From Mytilus galloprovincialis (Eukaryota; Mollusca; Bivalvia; Mytilida; Mytilidae): DNA of 64,000 nucleotides. Below are positions 29,026-64,000 of the stretch, one piece after another. The notes beneath the pieces were generated by a model, which saw only the letters and a list, made by a program, of their open reading frames with translations, had not been told where the DNA came from and did no database searches. Position numbers and translations under genes: made by a program. Location of the stretch: positions 76,730,724 to 76,794,723 of the forward strand of contig NC_134846.1 in assembly GCF_965363235.1 (NCBI RefSeq), in the 5' to 3' direction. How positions within the stretch are numbered: the stretch's first letter is position 1; each line of letters opens with the position of its first letter.

Positions 29026-31275
29026 GTTCCAACGAAGCATTTTCTGATAATTATAGCTGTTTGGTATGTGAAAAAGTGTACAATATTAGCTTATATTGTG
29101 ATAATAATTTGGAACGATCACTGAGGGGAGGGTAACGTCCTCATGATTGGTGAGTGCACAAATGGTAATGATTTGGCAAGATTTCGTTTTTAATTTATCG
29201 TATTCAATTTCAAAATGCATTTGGGATTAACAACTTTATATTGATTACATATATTTTATACAAATTAGGTATTGGACATTTCATATTAATGGCCAGTTTG
29301 GTAAAATGGAGATTTCCCCTACACTTTGTACAAAAAAACCAAGTAGGCACAATAGTACCTTTCGAGAACCTGTTATTTTTGGGAAATGCAGACTTTATAG
29401 TTTTTTATAAACAGATATAGGATTTTTAAAGGAGAGGTTGAATAAAAATATATCCTTTTTTAGCTCACGTGGCCCGAAGGGCCAAAGTGAGCTTATGCCA
29501 TCACTTGGCGTCCGTCGTCGTCAGTCGTCTGTCGTCGTCTGTCGTCGTCGTAAACTATTTCAAGAATCTTCTCCTCTGAAACTACTAGGCCAAATACTTC
29601 CAAACTTTAACTGAATGTTCCTTAGGGTATCTAGTTTATAAATTGTATCCGAAGTTTTGATCTATCAACAAACATGGTAGCCATTGCTAAAAATAGAACA
29701 TAGGGGTCAAATGCAGTTTTTGGCTTATAACTCAAAAACCGAAGCATTTAGAGCAAATCTGACATGGGGTAAAATTGATTATCAGATCAAGATCTATCTG
29801 CCCTGAAATTTTCAGATGAATCGGACAACCCGTTGTTGGGTTGCTGCCCCTGAATTAGAAATTTTAAGGAAATTTTGCTGTTTTTGGTTATTATCATGAA
29901 TATTATTATAGGTAGATATAAACTGTAAACAGCAAAAATGTTCAGCAAAGTAAGACCTAAAAATAAGTCAACATGACTGAAATGGTCAGTTGACCCCTTT
30001 AGGAGTTATTGCCCTTTATAGTCAATTTTTAACCATTTTTCATAAATCTGTTATCTTTTACAAAAATCTTCTCCTCTGAAACTACTGGGCCAAATTGAAC
30101 TAAACTTGGCCACAACCATCATTGGGGTATCTAGTTTGAAAATTGTGTCCGGTGACCTGGCCAACCAACCAAAATGGCCACCATGGCTAAAAATAGAACA
30201 TAGGGGTAAAATGCAGTTTTTGGCTTATAACTCAAAAACCAAAGCATTTAGAGCAAATCTGACATGGGGGTTAAATTGTTTATCAGGTCAAGATCTATCT
30301 GCCCTGAAATTTTCAGATGAATTGGACAACCCATTGTTGGGTTGCTGCCCCTGAATTGGTAATGTTAAGGAAATTTTGCTGTTTTGGTTATTATCTTGAA
30401 TATTATTATAGATAGAGATAAACTGTAAACAGCAATAATGTTCAGCAAAGTTAGATTTACAAATAAGTCAACATGACCGAAATGGTCAGTTGACCCCTTT
30501 AGGAGTTATTGCGCTTTATTGTCAATTTTTAACCATTTTTCGTAAATCTTAGTAATCTTTTACAAAAATCTTCTCCTCTGAAACTACTGGGCCAAATTAA
30601 TCCAAACTTGGCCACAATCATCTTTTGGGTATCTAGTTTTAAAAATGTGTCAGGTGACCCGGCCATCCAAACAAGATGGCTGTCTCGGCTAAAAGTAGAA
30701 CATAGAGGTAAAATGTCAAAAACCAAAGCATTAAGATCAAATCTGACTGTGGTTGAATTGTTTATCAGGTCAAAATCTATCTGCCCTGAAATATTCAGAT
30801 GGATCGGACGACACGTTGCTAGGTTGCTGCCCCTGAATTGGTAATTTTAAGGAAATTTTGCAGTTTTTAGCTCACCTTTCCTAAAAGGAAATGTGAGCTT
30901 TTCTCATCACTTGGCGTCCGTCATCATCGTCTGTCGTCGTTAACAATTTTTCAAACATCTTCTCCTCTGAAACTACTGAATGGATTTGGATGAAACTTAG
31001 CATGATTGTTCCTTAGATTATCCTGCACAAAGTTTGTGCTTCGATTTTTGATCCGTCAAAAAACATGGCCGCCGTTACTTAAAATAGAACATAGGGGTCA
31101 AATGCAGTTTTTGGCTTATATCTCAAAAACTGAAGCATTTAAAGCAAATCTGACATGGGGTAAAAATGTTCATTAGGTCAAGATTTATCAGCCCTGAAAT
31201 TTTCAGATGAATCAAACAACCCATTGTTGGGTTGCTGCCACTTAATTGGTAATTTTAAGGAAATTTTGCAGTTTT

Positions 31276-32365
31276 TAACCGGATTTTTGTGACAAAAATG
31301 TCGGTTATTGATTTGGGGATGTACGTCGGGCGGTCGGGCGGGCGGGCGGCAATCAAATGTTGTCCGTGCATTAACTCATGAACCGTTCAACCAAAGCTTT
31401 TAAAATTTTAATATGTTATTACTGACAACTATACGAAGGTCAAGTTCAATAATGGCGATTTTGACTTTTACCGTTCAGGAGTTATGGTTCTTGAAAGGCG
31501 GCAATCAAATGTTGTCCGTGCATTAACTCATGAACCGTTCAACCAAAGCTTTTCAAATTTTATTATGTTATTACTGACAACTATACGAAGGTCAAGTTCA
31601 ATAATGGTCATTTTGACTTTTACCGTTCAGGAGTTATGGTTCTTGAAAGATTGAAAAATGGAGTTTTCAGTCGTGTCCGTGCATTTACTCATGAACTGTT
31701 CTACCAAAGCTTCCCAAATTTTAATATGTTGTTACTGATGACAGAATGGAGGTCAAGTTCAATAATGACGATTTTGACTTTTACCGTTCAGGAGTTTTGG
31801 TTCTTGAAAGATTGAAAAATGGAGTTTCCAGTCGTGTCCGTGCATTTATGCATGAACTGTTCTACCAAAGCTTCCGAAATTTTAATATGCTGTTACTGAT
31901 GACAAAATGGAGGTCAAGTTCAATAATGACGATTTTGACTTTTACCGTTCAGGAGTTATGGTTCTTGAAAGATTGAAAAATGGTGTTTCCCGTCGTGTCC
32001 GTGCATTTTCTCATGAACCATTCAACCAAAGCTTTTGAAATTATAATATGTTGTTACTGATGACAAAATAGAGGTCAAGTTCCATAATGACGATTTTGAC
32101 TTTTACTGTTCAGGAGTTATGGTTCTTGAAAGATCGTAAAATGGCGTTTCCATTCACGTTGTTGCATTTACTCATGAACCATTCAATCTAAGCTTTTCAA
32201 ATATTATTATTTCAAAATGTTGATACTGATGTCAAAATGGAGGTCAAATTTGATATTGATGATTTTCACTTTCACCATTCATCAGTAATGGTTCTTGTGA
32301 TATTACCAGGACACAAATAAATGTAAATAAATCCGGTTTGCTGTCGTTGTGACAGCCTCTTGTTG
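31276..32365. mobile_element. Second repeat nested in the composite repeat
   Basis: Bounded by 'aaccggatttttgtgacaaa' on the left and 'aatccggtttgctgtcgttg' then 'acagcctcttgtt' on the right. It interrupts the host repeat exactly between 'aaattttgcagttttt' and 'ggtcattatcttgaat', which are contiguous in the other copies (for example near 30,366-30,405). Its core is a tandem array of about six units of 152-161 bp (31,344 to about 32,260). Confidence 0.75.
31344..32260 (+). repeat. Tandem array, unit 152-161 bp
   Basis: The word 'gtccgtgca' recurs at 31,362, 31,514, 31,675, 31,836 and 31,997 (steps 152, 161, 161, 161), each with 'ctcatgaac', 'accaaagctt' and 'acttttaccgttcaggagtt'. A diverged sixth unit follows. 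The frame at 31,746-31,976 is a repeat by-product. Confidence 0.85.
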
Positions 32366-32840
32366 GTCATTATCTTGAATATTATTATAGATAAAGAAAA
32401 AATGATCAGCAAAGTAAGATCTACAAATAAGTTAATATGACCAAAATTGTCAATTGACCCCTTAAGGAGTTATTGTCCTTTAATGACAATTTTTCACAAT
32501 TTGTTCATCATATTTGCTAACTTTAAAAAATCTTCTCCTCTAAAACTACTCAATCAAATTCAACCAAACTTCATTTGAATGATCAGTAGGGTGTATAAAA
32601 TAAAGTTTGTGTTTTATTTTCTATTTCGTCAAAAAACATGGCCGAAGGCATTGTTTACCAGGTGAGCGATTCAGGCTCTTGAGAGCCTCTTGTTTACTCT
32701 AAACTCCTGTCCTGCTTTTTTTTTTCCAAATCCCCGCCCCCTTTTTTCAATATAAAAACAATTGGTAGCTCCCCTTATTGATGTTTTTGGCTTAAACAAC
32801 TTCTTTGACTAACTTCAATAGTTCATATCATATACCGTAA

Positions 32841-47835: not shown

Positions 47836-49138
47836 ATATTTCTTTCTATTACAATAATATAGTACGAATACCACGCTTCCAATTACTATTAAGTCGCTGA
47901 CAAATGACACTGTGAAAACTTAAGTTTTAATCAGTTGCAGTTTCAAGACTTAGTGCGGCTAAAATTTTAGTTTTGATTTAAACCTTACTGTTTTTGTTTT
48001 TGTCTATTACAGTATAATGAGAAATTCTGGACTATCTACTTTCCTCAGTACTTTATGTGCTATATATTGTTTTTATGCCCGTTTTTCCCAATATTTTAAA
48101 TCGGTCAGTCTTATACATATTACTCATAAATATATCAAAATCTACTGACTCCTTGTAACAATTACAGCTTTGTTACCAATGACAGTGTTTCGTATTTGTT
48201 AAGATTTACTTACAATTTCTATTATACATTTACATAAATCTAGCCTGATTTTCAGTTTCCGAAAGCAAATGCAATATACAATAAAAGACATAGCCTGGGT
48301 TGATAAACGAACATTATTCAACAAATCAACATGCTCTGTTATTAGTAGTTTGAATGCCTTCATGGGAATAAAGCTATCACATTACGTATTTCTCAGTTTG
48401 TAATTGAAATGTGATTGAATCTGCGGAAAAGAAGAATACAATAACAGCCGCTTTGAAATTAGAGCATCGAATGGAACATACAAAGTTTCCCTTTGTAATT
48501 GGTCACACGAGACAGTTGGTTTTATTTGACCATTTCATGTGGTCAAATGTCCGTCAATAATGGATATTTTGCGTGCAAAGGCGACGTGTTTGAGACAGAA
48601 AGCATCCTCGATATCTTATTTTTCGTGAAATAGATTTTTAAATGACAGTCCACAGTATGTAAATAACCACTTTCTTTTATTTATCCTGACAGCAGAATTA
48701 ATGAATGTAGATAAACGGTTGTTTTTGGTGAGAAAGTTGCGTGAATTCTAATGAAAAAATCCCCAAGTGTATTTATAGAGTAGAAATTCGATGCTATCTG
48801 TTTGAACACGTCTCAGAAATATTAGTCACTTGTTCAATAGAAGCCAAGATTACTGTATATATAATAACCCAATTAAAGAACAATCGTTGTAGACTTTGAA
48901 GGTTTTTTTATCAGTATTTTTCTTTCCCTGAAATAAACCTCTCACGAGTCGACGTCAGCTTTGGATATTGAGTTATGATCATAATATAGATATCAATATT
49001 TTTGTTTTATTTAGTTCTACGTATGTTTGTGAAAGTATTTATGATGCAAAAAGCAAAACTTCCAACTTTAAAAAAATCTAAATTCTACATAAATACATCA
49101 ATTTGGATCGGATTTTTTTCAGAAAGAATAAATACAGG
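47836..49138. other. Intergenic, no gene seen
   Basis: No supportable ORF, RNA or element ends. Confidence 0.4.
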
Positions 49139-50235
49139 TTAATAATAAACTCATCAAAGATACCAGGATTGAAATTTCATATTTGCAACAGACGCGCGTT
49201 TTGTCTACAAAAGACTCATCAGTGACGATCGAATAAAGAATATTAAAAAGGCAATAAAGAAAAAAAGAAAAAAAGACGAAGTTGAAGTGCATTGAGGCCC
49301 AAAAATTTCTAAACGTTTTGCCAAATACAGCTAAGGTAATCTATTCCTGATGTAGAAAAGCGATAGTATTTAACAAAAATCAAAGTCAGTTTTGCGTTGA
49401 GGCTTTGGCTAACTCGGCTTTGCATTTTGATGTGCTGGATTAGGTTGTTTTATGTAATGTATCCGTTTTTATTCTGTAGTTAGTCAACACTTCGGGTTTA
49501 TCATGTATATCTATTATATAGTCATTTCATAAAATTTACTGTTAGCAAAAGTATGAATTATTCTTAATAATAAGGATGTTCTTATCCCAGGCAGAAAACC
49601 CTAGCCATATTGGACACAACTTTTTTGAACTTTTGGTCCTCAGTGCTCTTCAACTTTTTACTTGTTTTGGCTTTCGAACTTTTCATCTGAGCGTCACTGG
49701 TTGGTCTTGTTTGGACAAAACGCACGTCTGACGTATTAAATTTTCAACCTGGTACCCTTTGTTAGCTAATATTCGTGTGTTTTCTCTGTTCTATATGTTC
49801 TCCCATTTATTTGTATTGTAGTCCTGTCATGTAAATTAAATGTTGTCATTTTTTTAATGTTATATTTAACATTGCCATAAAAGCGGATGGGTTGTCATAC
49901 CACAAAACCAGGTGAGCGTTTCCCTCAGTTTTAGTTTGTAACCCGGATTTGTTTTTTTCTCAATCGATTTATGAGTTTCGAACAGCGGTATACTACTGTT
50001 GCCTTTATTTTTGAACAGGTTATTTATAGTAATGAACATATCAATAATAACTCAAGTCAACACAGAAGTGCTGACTACTGGGCTGGTGATACCCTTGGGG
50101 AATTAAAACTCCACCAGCAGTGGCATCGACCTAGTGGTGTTAAATAAACTAATCATAGATACCAGGATTGAAATTTTATAGATGCGCTGGTTTTAAAAAG
50201 TCATAAATCGATTGAGGGAAAACAAATCCGGGTAC
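49139..50235. repeat. Mosaic of the 'acgcgcgtttcgtcta' dispersed repeat
   Basis: Plus-strand unit at 49,139-49,370 ('gacgcgcgttttgtctacaa', 'gactcatcagtgacg'), minus-strand unit at 49,575-49,760, and a third part at 50,020-50,200 ('gtgctgactactgggctggt', 'ccaccagcagtggcatcgac'). Further copies are at 51,310-51,770 (minus), 60,680-61,535 and 62,200-62,360 (plus). Confidence 0.7.
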
Positions 50236-50406
50236 CAAACCAAAAACCGACGAAAACACATCAACTATTTTTTTGGAAAATATTTACTTTTATATTCACA
50301 TTTATGAACTGCTGCCATTTAACAATAAATATTTGTTAAAAAAAAATACTTGTAACTAAGATATATTAGTTTCTAAGATCTTCTATGATCTTATTTTAAT
50401 CAAACA

Positions 50407-50885
50407 TCATCTTGAACAAACAACGCATTTTAGATATTTCGAATTTTCATAAGGGGGACACGGCAATGAGCCACAGACGGTAATGACTGGAAAAAACAAT
50501 TTTCCGTCTAAATTTTGCCGACTTCCTTCAAAATATTGAGGATTTTCATCCACACATGAATACTCGGAAGCACCTGCATGTCCATAATGATTTGCACAAA
50601 GAAAACCTCCATATTGTTTTGTCCAGGTAGCAGGACACGAATTCTTTCCGGGAATCATCACGGAGGTGACTGCATTTGTATCCAAACAAGCCGCACAAGG
50701 AACGTCGTCATCCACTTTGACATTTCCATAGGCAAATTGATATTCTGCACCCCAAACGTGTGCTTTATAACCATGAATTTGTAATGCATTTGGAAAATCT
50801 GACGGAGCAAAATCTGGATCATGGGGTAGACATAAGTAATTTGTTCCACCTCCTGTTTCTTTCCAAGCCCCACCACCTGCTATAC
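50407..50885 (-). CDS. Gene A exon 3, C4-like cysteine-rich module
   Basis: Acceptor ttttattacag precedes GTATAGCAGG. About 159 codons to TGA, with Cys in YLCLP, VPCAAC, SCPATW, FLCAN, YSCVD, VCGSLPCPP and KCVVC. An ATG-started frame extends six residues into the intron (MYFITG); splicing to exon 2 is preferred because it keeps the conserved YSGIAGGG junction. Confidence 0.85.
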
Positions 50886-53599
50886 CTGTAATAAAATACA
50901 ATAACTTCTTAATATTATATACTCTTCATAAATACACAAATAAATGATATTTGAAAAAAGCACACTTTTAAGAAAGATTATATGAAAATCTGTAAAAAAA
51001 ACCCAGCACATTATGATTGGTCAACGGTTGAGTGTATACTTAACTTTCCAATCATTTATTTGCGTACATTGAGTTTACTCTGATTAAAAAAAAGAGAAGA
51101 AAGACACTAAGGCAAAAATACATATAGCGTTGTTTGATTGAAGTACATTTTGATTATTAAAGACAATTTGTTAAATTTTAACGGACCAGTCTATCAACAG
51201 AAGATATTTGTATTTGCACTGAACATGTTTGATTGTTTAAAAGACAGAATAAAAAGATGTGGTACGAGTAAAGATTATTTCAGCGAACGAAATCTCATCT
51301 CTAGATGAGCTTGATTTTAAATTATAATCCTTGTACCTTTGATAACTATTGAAACGGTTTACGCGCGTCTGGCGTACTAAATTATAATTCTGGTACCTTT
51401 GATAACTTTTACACCACTGGGTCGATGCTACTATGGGTGGACGTTTCGTCCCCGAGGGTATCACCAGCCCAGTAGTCAACACTCCGGTGTTGACATGAAT
51501 ATCAATAATGTGGTCATTTTTCTAAATTTCCTGTTAACAAAACTTTGAATTTTTCGAAACACTAAGGATTTTCTTATCCCAGGCATAGATTTATCCGTAT
51601 TTGGCACTTTTGGAATTTTGAATCCTCAATGCTCTTCAACTTTTTACTTGTTTGGCTTTAGAAATATTGTGATTTGAGCGTCACTGATGATTCTTATGTA
51701 GTCGAAACGCGCGTCTGGCGTACTAAATTATAATCCTGGTACTTTTGATAACTTTTACATTTTCTATCCAATAAAATAACATGAAATCAAAACAACAGTG
51801 ATTTCTGTAAAAGCCATTTATTTAATTTCAAGTCATGATAATAAAATTCATTTGATTTGCTTCTTTGGTAATACAGTTCTGTTTAAGTATATGAATGAAA
51901 TTATATCCAGTAAATATGTAACGTAATTACATTCACAATAAATTACAATACTTAAATATTATATATTACCAGAATATACTAAATTGGTTCCATTCACAAC
52001 TGGACAGTCTTTTCTTCCCCATCTAATATAAAAAGCACCACCTGTTGGAAGAAATGACCACAACAAATCTTAATAAAAAGTTTAAAAGTATTTATGTCTT
52101 ATCAAAAGGTTCCATTGTTATTTGGTTTTCTTAAATGAAATCAAGTACTTTTATCAAAATTAACTGTCATGCTAAATTTATTGTATTTTTCGTGATTTGA
52201 CCACTATACTATTATAAATGTTATTATTCGACAAACATATTTGTATGTTTCTGTAATAATTCACATGTTTGGTCACTTTTTCACGTTTTGTTACGTTTTT
52301 GGTGTTTGATATTTGGTCTTATTATTTTTGTAATTACAAATTAGAATGTTGTCATTATTTCGCTTGAAGTTCCTGCCTGTTTTTAATCCCACAGAAAGAT
52401 GATTTTTGGGGTATTTTTTTTTAATTACATTTTCTATACTTCAAACAATTTAAAGATTTAAGAAGATGCTTCTAGTATCATTTTTAGATCAACACATTTT
52501 TTCAATCCTGGTCATAGCCGTGTTAAGCATATTACCATAATGGTATGTTTAGAAAAAGGGGTATCTCAAAGAAGGAAATGTTTTAACAATACTTTGTTAG
52601 TTTTCGCATTTGCAAGTAGATGGAGAATAAATGAAATTTTTTAACGACATTGACTGGCTATACAGCCCTTGCAGGGCCGACCACAGCTTGCGCCTTTTTT
52701 GTGTATTGAAATAATTTAATTTTTATCATATGGTTATTAAATGACAAATAAAGTAAATAGAAGTAAAAAGTTGATGGACATGGTTCTCATGATACATTTG
52801 TATAGTATACATTTGTGGCGATAAACGTACCTGACAACACAATCACATCAATTATGAGCCTTTGCAAATACAATCATCTGCATATTTGTATTGCATTCAG
52901 AACGCATGTTCGGTCAAACCTTTCGAAAAACTAAACACATTAAAATATCTTAAATTGTTTCATCAATGTGGAGCAGGAACTGCTTACCCTTCTGGAGCAA
53001 CTGAGATCACCCCCATATTTTGATGGGGTTCGTGTTGGTTAGTCTTTAGTTTTCTATGTTGTGTCTTCTGTACTATCATTTGTCTGTTTGTCTTTTTATT
53101 TTCAGCTATGGCGTTGTTAGTTTATTTTCAATCTATGAGTTTGACTGTTCCTCTGGTATATTTGTCCTTCTGTTATATTCGCTTCGAAGCATTGCTAAGT
53201 TATATTGTGGTAAAAAACCATCTATGATAATTATTGAAATCAAAACAGAAATGTGTATCCTCAGTGTTTAAAAAATAAGATTTCTTGAAAACGCAGCGTA
53301 GGATATGTTATGATCTTCCTTTCTAGAAGCAGTAATTAGCTCAAACAATAATACACACGGTAATATTTTCCTGTTTGTAGTCTGCTTATTGCCAATTCTG
53401 ACCGTAACTTCGAATTTTCATTTTCTATAGACTCCATCCTTACATTTACGCCCTGCAGTTTCTTTTCCAATGCCAAAAAATGTGCATTTATTGCATCCGG
53501 ATCATTTAATAATAACCTTTTTCGTTCATTGTCATATTTCTCGGGCGAACAGAACCAGACAAATGACGTCAGAAACAGAAAGGATTTTACACATGCATC
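50407..53599 (-). CDS. Short-chain collagen C4-like secreted protein, gene A
   Basis: Three exons on the minus strand. Exon 1 (53,359 to about 53,599) reads KSFLFLTSFVWFC, a signal-peptide-like stretch, then ERKRLLLNDPDAINAHFLAL and a coiled coil ending LRSELAISRLQTGKYY; donor gtgtgt. Exon 2 (51,970-52,041, 72 bp) reads GGAFYIRWGRKDCPVVNGTN. Exon 3 (50,407-50,885) reads GIAGGGAWKETGGGTNYLCL, then HVWGAEYQF, DVPCAACLD, SCPATWTKQYGGFLCANHYG, CGSLPCPPY and stops after KCVVCSR. This order (GGGTNYLCLP, VPCAVC, CP..W, CGSLPCPP, CVVC) is the C-terminal module of sponge short-chain collagen C4 and its bivalve relatives. All exon phases agree. No in-frame ATG is visible at the start of exon 1, so the true start may be in an upstream exon or lost. 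No Gly-X-Y repeat is present. Confidence 0.75.
51310..51770 (-). repeat. Copy of the 'acgcgcgtttcgtcta' repeat in gene A intron 2
   Basis: Read on the minus strand: 'aagttatcaaaagtaccagg', 'cgcgtttcgactaca', 'gcctgggataagaaaatcct', 'tgactactgggctggtgata'. It lies between exons 2 and 3. Confidence 0.7.
51970..52041 (-). CDS. Gene A exon 2 (72 bp)
   Basis: Acceptor ttccaacag, donor gtaata. It encodes GGAFYIRWGRKDCPVVNGTN then LVYSG and starts and ends in phase 1, exactly as the 72-bp exon of gene B does. Confidence 0.85.
52960..53175 (+). mobile_element. Retroelement 3' tail fragment
   Basis: 'atgtggagcaggaactgctt', 'ggggttcgtgttggttagtc' and 'tatgagtttgactgttcctc' match the tail of the element at 43,495-44,285 on the opposite strand. 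Only the end is present. Confidence 0.6.
53359..53599 (-). CDS. Gene A exon 1, signal-like segment and coiled coil
   Basis: Aligns residue by residue with gene B exon 1 over the coiled coil (LLLNDPDAINAHFLALEKKL vs LLMNNQDAISAQLLTLERKL). The frame is open back to an in-frame stop near 53,620, without ATG. The 5' boundary is therefore uncertain. Confidence 0.6.
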
Positions 53600-53796
53600 T
53601 AACCTATACTGAATTGTTTAACTGATAATCATCCGGTATTGACAATGAACTATTTTGAAACATTTGAAGGTTGTAATTGATAAGACAGCAATGGTGTATT
53701 AGATATAGGACTATCAAATATGAAGGGCAACAGCCCCGAAGATACGAGAACCACGACCGATTTACATAGAAATAATGAAAAAAATTCAGAATAAAC

Positions 53797-53985
53797 AATG
53801 AAATGGGGAATATGTCAAAGAGACAACAACCCGACCATAGAACAGGCAACAGCAGAAGGTCACCAATAGGTCCACAATGCAGCGAGAAATTCCCGCACCC
53901 CTTCAGCTCGCCCCAAAACAAATGTATCTAATAGTTCAGTGATAATGAGCGACATACTAAACTCCAAATTATACACAAGAAACTA
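53797..53985. repeat. Dispersed repeat, same family as 17,684-17,830
   Basis: 'aatgaaatggggaatatgtc', 'caccaataggtccacaatgc' and 'cgagaaattcccgcacccct'. Lies upstream of gene A. Confidence 0.6.
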
Positions 53986-54030
53986 ATAATAATAATAATG
54001 ATAATAATAATAATAATAATAATAATAATT
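53986..54030 (+). repeat. (TAA)n microsatellite
   Basis: About 14 TAA/ATA units with one TGA interruption. Confidence 0.95.
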
Positions 54031-55204
54031 CTTTATTTAAAGAGGGTTACACAGTTAGATATAAAGCTAATCTTCACCGAGGCCCTCATGAAATACAATG
54101 AAATATAACAAACAATTACAAAATATCAAACAGACACACATACATGAATAATGAAATAAAAAATTGTTATGAAATATACAATTTTCAAAACAGGTAAAAG
54201 TTACAAATTCATATATGACATATATAAACTAATCTCTAGCCAATGAAGAAAAGTAAACGCATAACAATACGCACATTAAAATTCAGTTCAAGAGAAGTCC
54301 ATGTCTGATGTGAGAAGATGAAACAAAAGAAAATAAACAAAATAACAATACATAAATAACAACAGACTACTAACAGTAAACTGACATGTCAGCTCCAGAC
54401 TTCAATTAAACTGATTGAAAGATGATGTCTTCATCATATGAATATCAGGCACAATGCTTATTTTAATTTTTTTTTATATATTTTTCTAAAAAAAAACCAA
54501 TTTCTTTTGAAAATAAAAACAAGAATTCTATCGTATACCCAAATGTTCTATATGCTGCAACTCAAGAAGTGTTGTAGCTACAAGTAAAGACAACAGTAGT
54601 ATACCTTTTTCAAAAGTCGGAAATCGACTGAGAGAATACAAAGCGGGTTACAAACTAAAACCAAAGGAAACACATCAACTATAAAAGCTGGTTGACCATC
54701 AGTACCCAAAGGACTTGTATTAACAAAATGAACCGGAGGATGTTTATTTTAGAAACGCATGTTTTGTGCAAGGAAATCACTGTTTTTTTGTCTCTTTTTC
54801 ATTTTCATTGCTATACTACGCCTCATTTGAACCCACTGTATATAAATACCACTGCACTAATCAGAAGGACGAATTTTCTGTACAAAGCCAATAAATATAT
54901 AGACTTATGCAGCCCAAACTTCCATTGCCTTAAACATGTTAATGAAAGATCCGAAAACTATAACAATACAGAACGACATGCTTTAAAACTATAGCAAAAA
55001 TAATGTTTGACCCATTTTTATTCGTTATTGGAAAAAAAAAGAACTTAACATATATGAGGTAAAATTGATGGTTATCTTAAAAAATAAATAACATTTTCCG
55101 TTTAATTGGAATAATTAAAATATTTTCGATCTGCCTCTTTTGGACATCAAAGGTCAATACCATTATTTTAAGAGCAATTTCGTCTACCTCACAAAATCAA
55201 AAAT
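54031..55204. other. Intergenic between genes A and B
   Basis: No gene supported. The frame 54,692-54,994 (100 codons) follows a dispersed-repeat piece (54,595-54,690) and has no recognisable motif. Confidence 0.4.
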
Positions 55205-55411
55205 GGTTAGCGATCTCCAGAGTACTCCGGTCTCCTCCATCAATTAAATCTAACCACCACATCAAAGCATTATAGAGTTAAATTTGGCGTTAACCATCAA
55301 TCAACCAATCAATCTATGCATATGTTTCTGAGTTTTGTTCCAGGCATATGTTTTTAAAGATTTTCTAGGTATACTTTTCTTTCTTTTAAACGAATTCAAG
55401 GAAGGAAAACC

Positions 55412-55417
55412 TTTATT
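55412..55417 (-). terminator. Polyadenylation signal overlapping the stop codon of gene B
   Basis: On the minus strand the stop TGA (55,419-55,417) runs into AATAAA, sharing its last A. The partial copy B' keeps the same overlap at 63,848-63,855. Confidence 0.65.
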
Positions 55418-55895
55418 CATTTTGAACAAACAACACAAACCATATATTTAACGTTGTCATAAGGTGGACAGGGCAATGAGCCACATTTTGAAACAACTGG
55501 ATAGAACAATTTTCCATCTTGATTGTCTCGTTTTCCTTCAATATATTGTGCATCATAGTCAACACATGCGTATTCAGAAGCCCCAGCATGAGAGTACATA
55601 TTGGCACACAGAAATCCGTTGTATTGTTTTTTCCATTGAGACGGACATGACGTTTTCGCAAGAATCATCAAAGAGGTTTCTGTCGTTGTATCGCGACACA
55701 CTGCACATGGAACGTCGTCATCCACCTTGACCATACTGAAGGAGTACTGATATTCGGCTCCCCAAACGTATGCAACAAAACCACTTCTTTCGAGCTCATG
55801 AGGAAAATCTGCGAGACTTTGATCGGGATCATGTGGCAGGCATAAGTAGTTAGTACCACTTCCGGTTTTACCATAGCTTCCTCCACCTGCGATAC
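55417..55895 (-). CDS. Gene B exon 3, C4-like cysteine-rich module
   Basis: Acceptor ctgattcag. 479 bp, the same length as gene A exon 3 (479 bp). All Cys positions of gene A are kept. About 60% of residues look identical by eye; this was not computed. Confidence 0.87.
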
Positions 55896-56347
55896 CTGAA
55901 TCAGAAATAACGTTGAATTGGAATACGATAACGATAACGATACCTATACGATGGAGTTATTTCAAATTGAACTGTAAGATTATAACTAAACGGTGTAAAC
56001 AAAATATAATTGTATCAATAATTATTTACGCCCGTACAAGGCAAATACAAGAATAATTCAGTGGAATACATCTCAAAAGCAAAGAATTGTAAAACCAGAA
56101 ATATTATCTGTTTTGAAGGGTCAAGTTAAGTGAGTATTGAAAGACGTAAAAGCTATTTTGTTTGTCTCAAAATGAATATCCTTGGAAAGAAAATTATCCT
56201 TTGTTAGAAAATGCTATAATAACGGTTTCAACAGAAAATAAGACCACTGGAAAAGAGGCTCTTGCCTCATTTTTCCTCTTCATAGATGGATTTGATAATT
56301 TTTCCCCCTAAAATAATATCTTTATTGCACCTTTCTTTGCTGTTCTG

Positions 56348-56409
<62 letters not shown>

Positions 56410-59301
56410 TATTATAATATAAAATTGAGGAGAGCCCTTTTTTGATGAAGTAGAAAATAAAATTTAATAAATAAAAACAGATGCAGTGACGCTTTAAAAC
56501 AAAGAAGCATAACAAAATATATTAAGCATTACAAAGAATTAATTTGGCATGTCATTTTATAACAGTGAGGAATTCCAAAATATAAACAAATGTAAAAATC
56601 AGCTTATTCACATGTGAATCTATAGAATATCTTCGATTACACAACACACCACAACAACCAACAACACCGACTACTTCAAACGCTATTATCTATTAGATTA
56701 AATATTGAAGACAAAAAAATGAGGCTCTTCTGCAGTTTTTGCTGTTTGCACTAAATGCAAGAAATTTGAACCATACTATATTTGTATGCTAGATCCTGGA
56801 TGATTTAAAATTTTTGCTACTTCATAGTTTGTTAAATTACCAGATAACAAATGACAACTTAAGGTAGAAAGCGTGTTTTTCTCAATCTTGTATTTTGAAA
56901 TACCAGAAAACAATCGGTTTATATCTTGAATCCAATGTGCAAATTTTGAGAGTATTAGGTAATTCTTTTGTAAGAATTTTCATTTCAATATAGAAAACGA
57001 CATGGTTGTATTTATCAAAAACCAGAAAACTTTTGTTTAATTCAATTTTTCCAACTTTGACACATAAGCGGAGGCAACTCCAATGTAAGGGCAGATAATT
57101 CAGATAAAGTTACTTTTACAATAGAATGTGTTAGGAATTTACCTAATTGTATTTTATTATGTAGCAGGAAAACAGGTCCGTGACCCCATTTTTTCTTTTT
57201 CTTATCTAAAAGCATACTGTCAGAGCTATCTTTTCATATTTTATGGTGTAGTTTTCGTTGTATGGCGGAAATGTCAATTTTGCACAACATGTAGCGTTAA
57301 AATAAGCCCCTTGACCCATTATTTTTATTATTATTTTTAAAATATTTACGTTCTACGTTTTGACAGATTATTAAAAAAAGTTCAGTTTTCTATGTTATGT
57401 AATGTGTAATATTGTGTGTCTGTTTGTCTTTTTCATTTTTAGTCATGGCGTTGTCGGTTTAATTTCAATTATGAGTTTGACTGTCCCTCGGGTGTCTTTC
57501 CCCCTTTTATTTAGACAATCCATCTACCTTAATTTCAACTTTTCTTAGGAAATAATCAAATGTACAGCGCCTACGGATCATCAAGATATGTAATTGAAGG
57601 TATGCTGAAAAGAAATAATAAAAAAAGAACAATCACGCGATTTTTTTTGGGGTCCATTTGTTCTTGTGGTGACACTTTTATCTATGTCCTGTGCCAAGTC
57701 ATGAATATTGTTGTTTTATCTCATAGATCGTTTCTATGTATGTTGCATTTGCGTTTGGATTTTTTGAACTTCAGTGTTTTTGTTGTTCCGTTGTTTTCAT
57801 ATTATAGTTGATGTGTTTCACTGGGTTTAAGTTTGCTATCCGGATTTAAAAAAAAAAGAGTGTTTTATGACTTTTGAACAGCAGTATACAACTGTTGCCT
57901 TTATTTATAATCTTGTCAGAAATTTTTTCACCATTCGTAATTTTATTTTTTAATGTTTACCTGTATATACAAGTTGAGTTCCATTATTATTTGGACATTC
58001 GGTTCTTCCCCACCGTGTAAAAATAGTACTTCCTGTAGAAATAAAAATATTTCAAATTAGAATTTAAACACAAAAACCGAGTATTACAAAAAGAATTACG
58101 GATTTTAGAAGTATTTCTATAAAAATGAATATTGCTCCATCCATAAGAGAGACAAACGAATTGGAAGTACGTTATTTTAGTTCTTAATGTTTTCCCATTG
58201 CCAGAAATGCTTTTTGACATTTGCTCATTAAATGTCGTTTAAAACAATCACGGACAACTGCTATTGTTTAATATCTATTAGTAATTTAATCGCACTTCAA
58301 TAAATAGGGTTTGTTTTTAATACTAGATGATTTTTTATTTTTTTTTTGTTACCATACCTAACGGTTTTGCAGAGCACTCTCTAATGATTTGAAAAATAAT
58401 AAAAAATAAAAAAATTCTCAGGCCTTTGTTAAAATACCTTTGAGGACAAATTTGTGCCCGCAATGAAACTGTCAAGGAGAACATATATATGAATGATACA
58501 ACAACCAGTCTAAGATAGCCAGCTACTTGTATCTCTATTGATCCTTTCACTATGGCTGCGCCCATGTTACTATGTCACCCAAAAGTATATCCAATCAAAT
58601 TTAAAATGCCATGACAAAAAAATTCCGAAAAACGACGAAAAAAGTCAATAAAACACAAAAAACTGTATACATAGCAGCACAAACCCCCACCAAAAATCGG
58701 GAGTGATCTCAGGTGCTCCGAATTGGTAAGTAAATCTTGCTCCACATGTGGCATCCGTCGTGTTGCATATCTAAGTACAAATCCAGTGATAAGATTGATT
58801 TAGTAGATCACATTCGAGGAAAACAGGACGGGATTGTGGTTACGACATTTGGATATCCGTCTTCTTCATTGACTTTTTTTTTACTCCATAACGATCAACA
58901 ACCGCTTGATGATGTCGACAAATTCGATTTGATTTTTTCTCGGAGTTCAGTATTTTTGTGATTTAACGTTTTCTTTTCCCATTCTATTTTTATAAAAATT
59001 AAAAAGATACCTTTATATGACAATTGATTATGTATGTTGTTTATGTTCATATCTTCATATCTATTTGCTTTTTGCTTGCTACCAAATTCATTTTCAGCTG
59101 TGAATTTTCTGCCTCTATCGATGACATCTTCGCATTGACTTCTTGTAGTTTTCTTTCTAGTGTAAGAAGTTGAGCGCTTATTGCGTCCTGATTGTTCATT
59201 AATAAACGTTCCTGTTTCTTAGAACCCAAGTCACTTGCCGAAATAAAGCAAGCGAGGTACGTTAGAAGGAAACACACGGAAATTAATATGTTACTCATCA
59301 T
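55417..59301 (-). CDS. Short-chain collagen C4-like secreted protein, gene B
   Basis: Three exons seen. Exon 1 starts MMSNILISVCFLLTYLACF (signal peptide), then a coiled coil QLLTLERKLQEVNAKMSSIE. Exon 2 (57,961-58,032) reads GSTIFTRWGRTECPNNNGTQ. Exon 3 (55,417-55,895) reads GIAGGGSYGKTGSGTNYLCL, then YVWGAEYQY, DVPCAVCRD, CPSQWKKQYNGFLCANMYS, CGSLPCPPYD and ends CVVCSK. The family is short-chain collagen C4-like; in bivalves such proteins are secreted and their role is not settled. Exons 2 and 3 join in phase. Exon 1 has a problem: the donor gtagca (after TTG, phase 0) does not fit exon 2, and the frame homologous to gene A runs on to TGA at 59,047. Either a small exon is missing from my model or this copy's junction has decayed. 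Confidence 0.75.
56350..56407 (+). repeat. (TA)n microsatellite
   Basis: About 28 TA units in gene B intron 2. The frame 56,267-56,515 that reads through it is not a gene. Confidence 0.97.
57380..57515 (+). mobile_element. Retroelement 3' tail fragment
   Basis: 'tctttttcatttttagtcat', 'ggcgttgtcggtttaatttc' and 'tatgagtttgactgtccctc' repeat the tail seen at 43.5 kb. Confidence 0.6.
57640..57905 (+). repeat. Dispersed repeat copy, same as 47,240-47,835
   Basis: 'atgtcctgtgccaagtcatg', 'atagttgatgtgtttcactg' and 'cagtatacaactgttgcctt'. Lies just downstream (in gene direction) of exon 2 of gene B. Confidence 0.6.
57961..58032 (-). CDS. Gene B exon 2 (72 bp)
   Basis: Acceptor tttctacag, donor gtaaac. 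Encodes GSTIFTRWGRTECPNNNGTQ then LVYTG in phase 1-1. Confidence 0.85.
58600..58960 (-). mobile_element. Retroelement 3' tail fragment
   Basis: 'gagtgatctcaggtgctccg', 'ctccacatgtggcatccgtc' and 'gggattgtggttacgac' follow the tail of 43,495-43,800 in the same orientation. The end joins a different repeat ('ctcggagttcagtatttttg'). Confidence 0.6.
59047..59301 (-). CDS. Gene B exon 1, signal peptide and coiled coil
   Basis: Start ATGATG at 59,301. Residues 1-22 are a hydrophobic signal peptide ending near FISAS. Residues about 30-75 form heptads of a short coiled coil (LLTLERKLQEVNAKMSSIEA), which could make the protein trimerise in place of a collagen helix. The stated end is the stop of the open frame; the real donor may lie a little upstream. 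Confidence 0.75.
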   Translation of the reverse strand: MMSNILISVCFLLTYLACFISASDLGSKKQERLLMNNQDAISAQLLTLERKLQEVNAKMSSIEAENSQLKMNLVASKKQIDMKI

Positions 59302-59342
59302 AATCGAAACAATCTTAATACAAGTGCGTGTATTTTAAGGCT

Positions 59343-59376
59343 TTATCAGCTGAAGTATAAGACTTAAAGCTGATAA
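59343..59376. promoter_or_regulatory. 34-bp palindrome just upstream of gene B
   Basis: TTATCAGCT and AGCTGATAA arms, with inner AGT/ACT pairs, 42 bp before the gene B start ATG. It could be a dimer binding site near the promoter or a hairpin in the leader; this is inference. Confidence 0.35.
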
Positions 59377-60679
59377 CGATTGAGACCATAATTTACGTAT
59401 TGGATTTTTTTCGGAGATTATGCAGATGTTCTGTTTAACAAAGAAACGTTTTTAGTATAGATACAATGAATATGCGTTGATTTGTGATAATGGAACCATG
59501 AGGACGGAGGTCGAATTGTTTCATATTAAACAAACGCTTATCCATTGTGTCCTTAACTTAAACTATTGTTCTAATGTGTTTTCAACAAAGCATTTTATTT
59601 AGTTGAGAGTATTGTACACGAGTTTATGAGTTTGACTGTCCCTCTTGTTACTTTCGCCCCTCATTTAGATAATATATAATCATTTTCAACGATACGCTCA
59701 CAATTTACCAGTAAGAGAACTAGAAATATAACATAACACAATTAACGCACGTATGTTTACTATTATTTTATTTGCATACGTAATTTATTTAAAAAAAAAC
59801 CAAACGCATTTGAAATACTTGAATTTTTATACGCTGGACAAGGCAGTAAGCAATAAACGGTAATTACTAGGAAAACAAACCCCGTCTCAGTTTTGTCGCC
59901 TCCCCTCAAAGTATTGAGATTTTTCATCCACACGTGAATACTAAGAGGCACCTGCATATCCACAATAATTTGCACATTGATAACCCGCATATTCTTTTTC
60001 TAGATAACAGGACAAGCATGTTTTTTATTTTTTATTTTGTTTCCAAACATGTGTCACAATGAACATCGTCGTCAACTTTGACATTTCATTAGGCAAATTG
60101 AAATTCTGCACCCCGAACATATGTTTTATGAATATTAGTATTGTACTGCAATTGGAAAATCTGATGGCTCGATCATGACTGAGGTAGACATAAGTAATTG
60201 TTCCATTTCCTGTTTCTGTATACCCCGACCATCGACTATACCTGTAACACAATACAATAAACTTATTTCTAGTATATACACTTCTAAATAATTAAATAAA
60301 AGGTATTTGATTAGTTATACTTAACTGGAAAATGAGTAAAAACTGCAAATACCTCAGTAAAATCTGCTGGTTAACTGTTGGGGGTACAGATATAACATTC
60401 CAAATTATTAATATGCATCCAGTAAGGTTACACTGATTTAAGGAAAAGAAGAAATAGACACTGAGGCGAATCTACATACAGCCTTTGCTTAATATACATT
60501 TTAATAAAGATACTATTTGTTAAATGTTAAAGGACCAGTCTTTCAACATATGATTGCTATTCGAATGGGTGTTTGTTATGCGCTACATTTTTGATTGATA
60601 AAGACTATTTAAGCAAATCTATAATCTCTAGGAAGGCTTTTAACCGTCTACACGTTCTAGCAAATCAACAAACGTGAAA

Positions 60680-61535
60680 CCATAATAATTATCAAAGGTA
60701 CCAGGACTATAATTAAGTACGCCAGACGCGTGTTTCGTCTACATGAGACTCATCAGTGATGCTCATATCAAAATAGTTATAAAGCCAAACAAGTACAAAG
60801 TTGAAGAGCATGAGGATCCAAAATTCCAATTTTTTTTTCCAAAAACGTCTAAGGTAATAAAATTAACGGTACCAATTTTCTTGCACCAGATGCGTATTTC
60901 GACAATACATGTCTCTTCAGTGATGCTCGTGGCCAACATATTTGAAATTCAAAGCTTATATAAAAGATGAAGAGCTATAATCCGAAAGGTCCAAAAAGTA
61001 TAGCCAAATCCGTGAAAGGAATCAGAGCTTTGCATGAGGGAGATACATTCCTTAATATATAATAATTTCTATCATTTTGTAACAGCAAATTTTAATAACC
61101 CAAAAAATCCGTATTTTCATGCCATTACCGAAGTACTGGCTACTGGGCTGGTGATACCATCGGTACTAATAGTCCAACAGCAGATAAAATTAATGGTACC
61201 AATTTTCTTGCACCAGATGCGTAATTTATGCCTGGGATAATAAATCCTTAGTTTTTCGAAAACAGGGAATTTATAAAAATGACCACATAATTAATATTCA
61301 TGTCAACACCGAAGTGCTGACTACTGGGCTTGTGATGCCGTCGGGGACGAAACGTCCACCAGCAGTTGCTTCGACCCAGTGGTGTAAATAGCTATCAAAG
61401 ATACCAGGATTATAATTTAGTACGCCAGACACGCGTTTCGTCTACACAAGACTCATCAGTGACGCTCATATCAAAATAGTTAAAAAGCCAAACAAGTACA
61501 AAATTGAAGAGCATGATAATCCAAAATTCCAAAAA
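60680..61535 (+). repeat. Two copies of the 'acgcgcgtttcgtcta' repeat
   Basis: 'aattatcaaaggtaccagga' at 60,689 and 'gctatcaaagataccaggat' at 61,391, each followed by 'tagtacgccagac' and 'gactcatcagtga'. Between them is 'gtactggctactgggctggt' and 'gtgctgactactgggcttgt'. A related variant with 'accaattttcttgcaccaga' appears twice (about 60,870 and 61,198). Confidence 0.7.
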
Positions 61536-62199
61536 GTTATCATAACAATGATTCCCGTAAAATCTTTTCCATTTCACGACATTATAAAATTATTTTCACT
61601 CTACTACTTTGGTAATTCAGACCAATAAAGCATAATCACCAGTAAATATAAAACCCACACTTTTCGTCAGTAAAATTTAGATTCAGTATTACTTTTCTGT
61701 TTACATAAATGTATATCTGTCCCTGGTGTACCATTTGTGTTATGCCTATATTTTCCTATTTTTCTAGCTTATGACTTCAGCAATTAGGAGGTTTTTGAAA
61801 TGTTTCTTTACTTGGCATCACACGGATGCAACTAGTAGGAGATGTTTGACCGAAACACTAGAGCTCACCACGGCTTGTGATAAGTATGTGTTTACCAATT
61901 CTTATTTTTTTATTTAATTGCATGAAATGGACTGTTTATTGTCATTTCACTTATTTTTTTATAAATTTTTGACAATGGAGTCGTATACCCTTGGTATCTA
62001 TTAAGTTTTGAAGTGCCTTTGACTTGTCTATGTTGGACATAGTGTTCAAATACGGAAAAATAATTTATAATAAAGTATGCAAAAAGCACAACAGGACCTC
62101 CATTTCATCCTTATATATGTAAAAAGCATCGCCTGTTGGTAAAGTGACAATTACAAATGCCTTTATTTAATATAAATTTCAAATATTAAAATACTTAAG

Positions 62200-62360
62200 T
62201 AGTTATCAAAGGTACCAGGAATATAATTTAGTACGCCAGACGCCCGTTTCGTCTACATAAGACTCACCAGTGACGCTCATATAAAAATATTTATAAAACT
62301 AAATAAGTACAAAGTTGAAGAGCATTGAGGACCAAAATTCCAAAAAGTTGATCTATTATT
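62200..62360 (+). repeat. Single unit of the 'acgcgcgtttcgtcta' repeat
   Basis: 'gttatcaaaggtaccaggaa', 'gtacgccagacgcccgtttc', 'agttgaagagcattgaggac'. Lies between exon 1 and 2 relicts of A'. Confidence 0.7.
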
Positions 62361-62799
62361 TTAATTATTAAATTATTTCAATTAAACGTGATATTTCGTT
62401 ATTTTTTTTTACCATAAACGTCAATTTTCATTTCCTATAGACCCCATTCTAACATTCACTTTCTGCAGTGTCTCTTCTCCAGTGCCAGACGTTTATCGCA
62501 TCTGGATCATTAAATTATTATATTTTTCCTTCATTGTCACATTTTGTAGTCGAACAGAACCAGACGAATAAAGTTAGACATAGGAAGGTTTTACACAGAT
62601 ATACATATTGTTTCTAGACATCTATCTAGTACTGAAGTATGACAATCACCTGGTATTGACATTGAACTAATTCAAAACATTTTAAGGTTGTAATTTATAA
62701 GGCTTCAATATTGTATTTGATATAGGCCTCTCAAATATGAGGGGCAACAGCACCGAAGGTACGAGAGTCCACACCCGATTCACATAAAAGTAATACATA

Positions 62800-63652
62800 C
62801 TTATTTATAATTTTTAATATTGTTCTAAAAGGAGCAATTTGTCATGAAAATAAACACCAAAATTAATGTCATTATCTCAAACTTTTTAGATGCAGTAAAA
62901 CCTTTAGATAAAGTTTTATAGCTACAAATAAAGACAACAGTATACCGGTTTTCCAAAGTTGTAAATCGATTGAGAGAATACAAATTCGGATTACAAACCA
63001 AAACCGAGGTAAACACACCAATTATAAGAGGAAAACAAAGGAACAACAGGAACACTGAAGTACATCAAAAGTCAACGACAACACATGTCTTCTTTCTATC
63101 ATCAATTTGATATCTTATCCCTGCTTTTGTATGGTAATTCCTGTTCTATCTTGTCTTTCGTGTGACGACAAGACAATTGCATTTTCATCATTTACATGGC
63201 TGTGGTAAAAGGTAAACCATGTACCTTTAGTTTTATTTTATTAAAGTGTTACCATTTAACAGTAAAAAGTACAGGTTTAACTATTTATATAGCTATCGGT
63301 CATTGCAATTTGCTTTTGCATTTGCAGAAAGTGGGAATTGCAATAGGTATTGGGAATAGGAATTTGTATATTAAACACGAAAAGAAATTTACATTTCTTA
63401 GTAATAAACAATATAGCCAAGCCTTAAAAGTGGACTTCAAATAGCAGTTGTATACTCTTTTCTATTTTCAAGTAAAATTAACCCGTGCTCGACTTCTAGA
63501 CATGTATATATGACTTGTACAAGAATCTACAAACAATTTTATATTTTCAATAAAGTTGTTTTAACATCATTATTACCATACTCTATCTACAATCAATTAT
63601 TTCACATCAAAAGCAACAACAAAAAAATCAGCACCACTGATTGTTCGTTGTT
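62800..63652. other. Intergenic between A' and B'
   Basis: Includes a dispersed-repeat piece at 62,930-63,065 (reverse). The frame 63,196-63,444 (82 codons) has no recognisable motif; I do not call it. Confidence 0.4.
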
Positions 63653-63717
63653 CGGGCACTCCGGTCTCCTTATCACTACAAAATGGCACTGTAGAACTAA
63701 AATGGCGTTAAACACCA

Positions 63718-63757
63718 ATAATTGATTGATCAATCAATCAATCGATCAATCAATCTA
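63718..63757 (+). repeat. (ATCA)n microsatellite
   Basis: 'gatcaatcaatcaatcgatc' and continuation. The corresponding place upstream of 55,330 holds 'aatcaaccaatcaatc', so the repeat expanded after the duplication or shrank in the other copy. Confidence 0.9.
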
Positions 63758-63852
63758 TTATTTTAATATGTTCCAGGCATATGTTTTTTTCAATATTTTC
63801 TAGGCAAAATTACTCTTTCTAATAAACGAATTCAAAGCAGTAAAACTTTTAT

Positions 63853-64000
63853 TCATTTCGAACAAACAACACATACTATAAATTTAGCGTTCTCATAAGG
63901 TGGACAGGGCAACGAGCCACATTTAGAAGCAACTAGATAGAACAATTTCCCATCTTGATTTTCCCGTTTCCCTTCAACATATTGTGCATCATAGTCAACG
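63853..64000 (-). CDS. Short-chain collagen C4-like gene B', 3' end only
   Basis: Minus-strand frame reads VDYDAQYVEGKRENQDGKLF, then VASKCGSLPCPPYENAKF and ends CVVCSK with TGA at 63,855-63,853. It is very close to the end of gene B (VDYDAQYIEGKRDNQDGKLF). No damage in the visible 49 codons. The rest lies beyond the window. AATAAA overlaps the stop as in gene B. Confidence 0.85.
   Translation of the reverse strand, partial: VDYDAQYVEGKRENQDGKLFYLVASKCGSLPCPPYENAKFIVCVVCSK

Follow-up and report, generated by a model that had tools for sequence, protein, structure and literature searches.

The stretch of DNA analysed here, called the window, spans 64,000 nucleotides of the Mytilus galloprovincialis genome (G000:C9:76,730,724-76,794,723, in an assembly of 1.38 Gb and 331 contigs) and carries at its right-hand end a tandem array of genes that we take to be of the kind labelled ‘short-chain collagen C4’ (CAS4_EPHMU), a label that follows the earlier reading and the annotations used in papers. 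We compared the window with itself, and then again after extending it by 40 kb to the right and 20 kb to the left; coordinates beyond 64,000 are given on the window's scale. The self-comparison recovered the arrangement that the original prediction had described, four alternating copies on the minus strand in the order A, B, A', B', and the added flanking DNA revealed the remains of three units rather than two, so that the pattern does continue past 64 kb. Unit 1 (A and B) is a copied block at 50,383-59,584, delimited by its collinear match to 59,760-67,208 and by comparison of the junctions; unit 2 (A' and B'), also on the minus strand, is visible at 59,709-64,000 and runs on to ~67,208; and the remains of unit 3 lie to the right of the window at ~67.25-70.54 kb. 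The rest of the window and the additional 60 kb yielded no other head exon at E<=0.01.

Gene A is encoded by three minus-strand exons—an open head exon with the nine family cysteines (exon 3, 50,407-50,885; from the sequence and the head alignment), an exon encoding YIRWGRKDCPVVNGTNLVYS in phase 1-1 between AG and GT sites (exon 2, 51,970-52,041; from the sequence and tblastn), and a first exon with a signal-peptide-like stretch, the motif KRLLLNDPDAI and a heptad coiled coil (53,375-53,617). A had been implied to be intact; exon 1, however, lacks an in-frame ATG ahead of the coiled coil; A' still has an ATG at the position aligned with the missing start. What remains of A', likewise on the minus strand, is an exon 3 with frameshifting indels and stops (59,760-60,270), a disrupted exon 2 with flank (62,087-62,217), and an exon 1 with the upstream flank that it has in common with A (62,406-62,794).

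Gene B, on the same strand, comprises an open head exon (exon 3, 55,417-55,895), an exon encoding STIFTRWGRTECPNNNGTQLVYT in phase 1-1 (exon 2, 57,961-58,032), and a first exon with an ATG, signal peptide and coiled coil that also contains an in-frame stop at 59,047-59,049 (exon 1, 59,011-59,301). The 3' part of B' exon 3 falls within the window (63,853-64,000, minus strand) and the whole exon (63,853-64,331) is open; in both B and B', the stop codon overlaps the polyA signal (TGAATAAA). Unit 3 consists of a dead A-type exon 3 (A'', 67,354-67,821) followed by B-type exon 2 (69,893-69,958) and exon 1 (70,222-70,435), which together represent B''; between its A-type and B-type exons lie repeats that also occur in the window.

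Duplication of a two-gene block

Matches between the units run well beyond the exons. A and A' align at 72% over 834 columns (50,383-51,205 versus 59,760-60,554) and at 74% further upstream (53,396-53,776 versus 62,406-62,794), in agreement with the earlier claim that they share introns and upstream flank. B and B' match at 79% within the window (55,250-55,563 versus 63,669-63,999), which, with the stop/polyA overlap, likewise bears out a common 3' flank; past the window edge, the match extends to 55,250-56,101 versus 63,669-64,554 at 78%, and 58,407-59,584 matches 66,079-67,208 at 67%. Overall, both pairs stay collinear through introns, intergenic DNA and flanks, with identities of 65-79%. 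A single collinear chain between units 1 and 2 accounts for 10 of the 40 listed matches, passing from A exon 3 and its intron through exon 2, exon 1 and its upstream flank, and the A-B intergenic stretch (54,454-54,687 versus 62,797-63,030, in part a dispersed repeat) into B as far as its 5' flank. The remaining listed matches are dispersed repeats or cross-matches among A, B and unit 3, apart from one in which query and subject overlap. The dispersed repeats, ~66-95% alike and in both orientations, lie at 49,138-51,804, at 60,682-62,405 and, in unit 3, at 67,838-69,633; their presence in the introns and flanks of the array inflates naive dot plots.

The two junctions between units (59,584/59,709 and 67,208/67,250) have the same layout, with the B 5' flank (59,251-59,584 versus 66,880-67,208, 77%) followed by the A 3' flank (59,709-59,846 versus 67,250-67,406, 68%). 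Because this order recurs at both, we conclude that a two-gene block was duplicated. As a control, unit 1 was compared with 19.5 kb of DNA beyond the right end of the array; a single 84-bp match reached E<1e-8. A tree of exon-3 DNA sets A apart from the groupings (A',A'') and (B,B'), each with support of 1.0, and a tree of 35 protein heads recovers (A,(B,B')) with support of 0.96. Neither a lack of common flanks nor a grouping of A with B and A' with B' was seen in the self-comparison or the trees. The A-B split is far older than the unit copies, with a synonymous divergence (dS) of 1.2 or more, which is saturated.

These observations bear on whether A and B might instead have been duplicated one at a time, in two single-gene events, with the alternation arising by chance. 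Kimura two-parameter (K2P) distances could be read that way, as they are lower for B-B' (0.20-0.24) than for A-A' (0.32 in the exon 3 region, 0.37 in the exon 1 region and 0.46 in a short exon 2 alignment of 81 columns), with A'-A'' at 0.28, and a dispersed repeat makes up part of the common intergenic piece. However, the stretches behind these distances take in exons, which are constrained in B and B' and not in A', and non-coding identities overlap (72-74% for A-A', 69-77% for B-B'). Whole-unit collinearity and the matching junctions led us to reject separate duplication, which we regard as highly improbable. Copying of the pair as a block, and birth-and-death evolution, as originally proposed, is instead what collinearity, junctions and roughly similar non-coding divergence support—a repeated multi-gene unit with common flanks and junctions and with pseudogenes among its members.

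Deletions of 16-17 bp and 1 bp and an insertion of 4 bp are common to A' and A'' in an alignment read by eye. Since these disabling indels are found in both, the block was recopied after A' had died; the decay of A' had been predicted, and the order of events is richer than that prediction stated. The history that we propose begins with A and B as old paralogues in a large family of secreted proteins. A block of ~9 kb, from the A 3' end to the B 5' flank, was copied in head-to-tail orientation, with unequal crossing-over as the probable mechanism, to give A-B-A'-B'. A' then lost its function, and a second duplication took in a block whose A' was already dead. Unit 3 has since shrunk, a deletion being the probable cause, to one A-type head exon with exons 2 and 1 of B type after it. 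The copies, the order in which they lie and the lesions in common are observed directly, and crossing-over and deletion are inferred. The array offers a tidy example of block duplication, with a dead gene taken along into the second copy, and the mechanism is ordinary gene turnover in a large, little-studied family.

Decay and constraint among the copies

The earlier reading that the visible part of B' had stayed open after A' decayed is right for the head exon, but exon 1 is broken. For all three B copies (B, B' and B''), the frame of the coiled coil hits a stop ahead of a conserved donor (AG|GTATNT), and the phase-1 frame of that donor is a different one; clean phase-1 splicing is seen in other family members (L019 and L024, and L015 by eye). 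Programmed frameshifting was considered as a rescue of B and set aside, as no classical slippery heptamer was apparent by eye. Given this common frame break and the missing start of A, none of the copies can be shown to have a complete frame.

It might follow that the entire array is dead or dying, A having lost its start, B and B' having inherited a frame break, and A', A'' and B'' being pseudogenes. Two of the three A-type genes are indeed overtly dead, and B'' lacks its head exon and carries a 5-bp deletion in exon 1. Against this, each of A, B and B' has a head that is open across 159 codons, and the frame of the B' stalk survives deletions of 36 and 9 bp. The proposed comparison of nonsynonymous (dN) with synonymous divergence between the B and B' heads gave dN/dS values of 0.115/0.296 (NG86), 0.112/0.317 (YN00) and 0.113/0.276 (maximum likelihood), that is, a ratio of 0.35-0.41 by three methods, and both copies remained free of stops in only 0.016, 0.006 and 0.0025 of neutral simulations (three divergences, 2000 runs each). 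The B and B' heads have therefore been under constraint since their split, if less tightly than another recent pair in the family (L016/L017; dN 0.042, dS 0.30). Rescue of the genes could also come from a first exon or splice site that we did not recognise. On balance, we consider a wholly dead array a real possibility but not the probable one.

Protein layout and the family across the genome

The family layout comprises a signal peptide (judged by eye), a heptad coiled coil and a ten-cysteine head. Nine of these cysteines form alignment columns in exon 3—seven of them in all 35 heads, the other two in 34 and 33 heads (one head being cut short)—and the tenth lies in exon 2, as seen in 15 distinct family-type exon 2 rows after weak chance rows had been set aside. 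First exons typically encode the signal peptide and then the motif KRLLLNDPDV..RL..LE. For the coiled coil, a core-position test on nine stretches, trimmed by eye and with B' left out, was compared with 5000 shuffles of each. No shuffle did as well for A, B, three other family members or a stalk exon near a C1q head (described below); for the other three stretches, 3, 5 and 136 did.

The name ‘short-chain collagen’ applies to the head, and there as a name only. Translated in all six frames, 69 records that overlap in part and total 359,446 bases contained no run of six or more Gly-X-Y triplets (X and Y other than Gly); the scan reached exon 1 in 6 of the 14 loci L015-L028 by the strict motif and left intron DNA beyond these records, and most of the 189 loci introduced below, outside. 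With a stalk that fits a coiled coil, the lack of such runs in the DNA read led us to reject a collagen identity. Likewise, 33 heads gave no convincing Pfam match and a profile of heads found no PDB sequence at E<=10, while the joined B protein retrieved viral protease chains at E>=0.14, which we judged to be chance. Patterns from the B protein alone confirmed no prokaryotic or viral relative of its head in the viral_contigs and genome_contigs collections. AlphaFold2 models of three window sequences had a mean pLDDT of 36.8, too low to use.

Across the genome, one head query yielded 290 candidates, of which the best 150 were scored; several are partial and 12 contain stops. A DNA pattern for roughly C-G-S/T-L-x-C-P-P-Y/F occurs at 153 exact places (0 for the reversed control), and 39 of the 100 listed places fall outside the scored heads, these 39 resting on the motif. 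Together, this gives at least 189 head loci on 14 contigs, some of them partial or broken, with 129 in clusters (gaps up to 50 kb). Expansion of the family, which had been suggested for bivalves, thus holds for this genome, the one that the search covered. The nearest relative of the window clade among the 35 aligned heads lies on another contig (C10, at 75.80 Mb; support 0.965). Of 68 matches to exon 1 (E up to 10, counting the query itself), 59 are followed by a head on the same strand no more than 20 kb downstream, compared with a mean of 0.18 and a maximum of 2 under random placement. Separately, five exon-1 matches in ~205 kb of G000:C8:49,066,925-49,272,196 have no listed head within 20 kb; their heads are perhaps divergent ones beyond the best 150. 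At another locus (L028, G000:C13:30,354,000-30,363,999), positions 8029-9613 hold a head exon with 23 tandem copies of a 69-bp unit at 98% match; the unit encodes EFHSGTGPYNHDVPCAVCRATLS, an in-frame repeat of a CxxC loop within an open frame of 660 aa.

The wider value lies in this family, which bears a collagen name, has no collagen repeat in the DNA read and numbers at least 189 loci. In titles and abstract openings of open-licence literature, we found no report of its size in mussels under the ‘short-chain collagen’ name, and domain-based surveys would miss it, given the lack of a convincing Pfam match. Within the window but apart from the array, 29,446-32,612 contains repeated segments of ~270-840 bp at 69-88% identity, with no array match reported.

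Probable role and named relatives

Bivalve C1q-domain-containing (C1qDC) proteins consist of a signal peptide, a coiled coil and a small globular head. The mussel family similarly places a signal peptide and coiled-coil stalk before its head, and C1q itself is greatly expanded in this genome (the best 150 of 1055 candidates were all over the cut-off); the head, however, is not C1q by Pfam, as PF00386 matched neither the 33 heads nor the joined B protein. From this layout, the most likely role would be that of a secreted, stalked, oligomeric binding protein, probably a trimer whose heads would bind a surface or ligand. Many divergent, clustered loci, some with stops, are a pattern associated with recognition families.

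An alternative gives the proteins a structural role, in extracellular matrix, adhesive or shell matrix, as the collagen label suggests. In published accounts, spongins were first found in the demosponge skeleton (PMC5395295), two genes so named are up in the adhesive pedal disc of an anemone (PMC6626399), and a paper that lists the name in oyster gill on plastic also ties it to biomineralization (PMC12040131). Other sources place the name among gill-specific transcripts of M. galloprovincialis beside C1q, perlucin, apextrin and fucolectin (PMC4581086), among pearl-oyster growth SNPs (PMC11270918) and in a table for Pinna (PMC13093298). The gill association argues against a structural role, as do the absence of Gly-X-Y runs in the bases scanned and the recognition-like pattern of divergent loci (at least 189, over 14 contigs), with 129 clustered and stops in 12 of 150 scored heads; we consider such a role rather unlikely.

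We favour, with a probability of roughly 0.78, a two-gene block that was copied and then recopied with a dead A', and that encoded a secreted protein with a coiled coil, a ten-cysteine head and a C1q-like layout. Several points weigh against this. The binding role rests on layout and published tissue rankings; the core-position test used stretches trimmed by eye and left out B'; and hydropathy periodicity is not significant in A (1136 of 2000 shuffles), B (981) or B' (1525), with 10, 54 and 110 of 2000 in the family members L034, L019 and L038. The K2P distances also differ between A-A' (0.32-0.46) and B-B' (0.20-0.24), and the order of B, B' and B'' conflicts between exons: exon 1 gives 0.22 for B-B'' and 0.33 for B'-B'', and exon 2 the reverse; gene conversion among copies is possible. 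Finally, the frame break common to the B copies sits badly with constrained heads, although gene conversion spreading one defect, or an unrecognised gene model, could reconcile the two.

Stalk exons may have moved between families. On another contig, a C1q head has 2.3 kb upstream of it a stalk exon that resembles exon 1 and encodes KRILTNDPDHVETRLNQLEQKI (L069/L070; G000:C2:4,876,150-4,876,600 and 4,878,500-4,878,900). The exon near this head (C2:4,878,785) was found at E 0.045, and, used as the query in turn, it recovers exon 1s of the family at E values from 3.8e-5 upward; its visible donor is in phase 0 versus phase 1 for the C1q exon acceptor, with no direct fit, and exon sharing with C1q thus stays a lead. 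A broader proposal, which we hold to be doubtful, is that this collagen-free stalked family with spongin-like heads forms a second large mussel recognition repertoire beside C1q, its stalk exon exchanged with C1q heads and its heads diversified by block duplication, exon fusion and in-frame minisatellite growth of a head loop, as at L028.

Comparison with SSCC/spongin-related proteins, whose name is used in print for annotated bivalve proteins, rests on the head. The spongin C-terminal domain is reported to have ten cysteines, seven in common with collagen IV and three of its own, and to be homologous to collagen IV NC1 (PMC5395295). Ten cysteines are also conserved in the mussel head, a likeness in number; in contrast, the mussel family has a coiled-coil stalk and no Gly-X-Y stretch in the DNA read. 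The collagen IV NC1 profile (PF01413, Pfam C4) matched 0 of 33 heads at E<=10. In the genome, this profile occurs at eight places, all within G000:C3:62,358,454-62,480,186, at 62.36 Mb (minus strand) and 62.48 Mb (plus strand), ~116 kb apart, in what looks like a head-to-head collagen IV pair.

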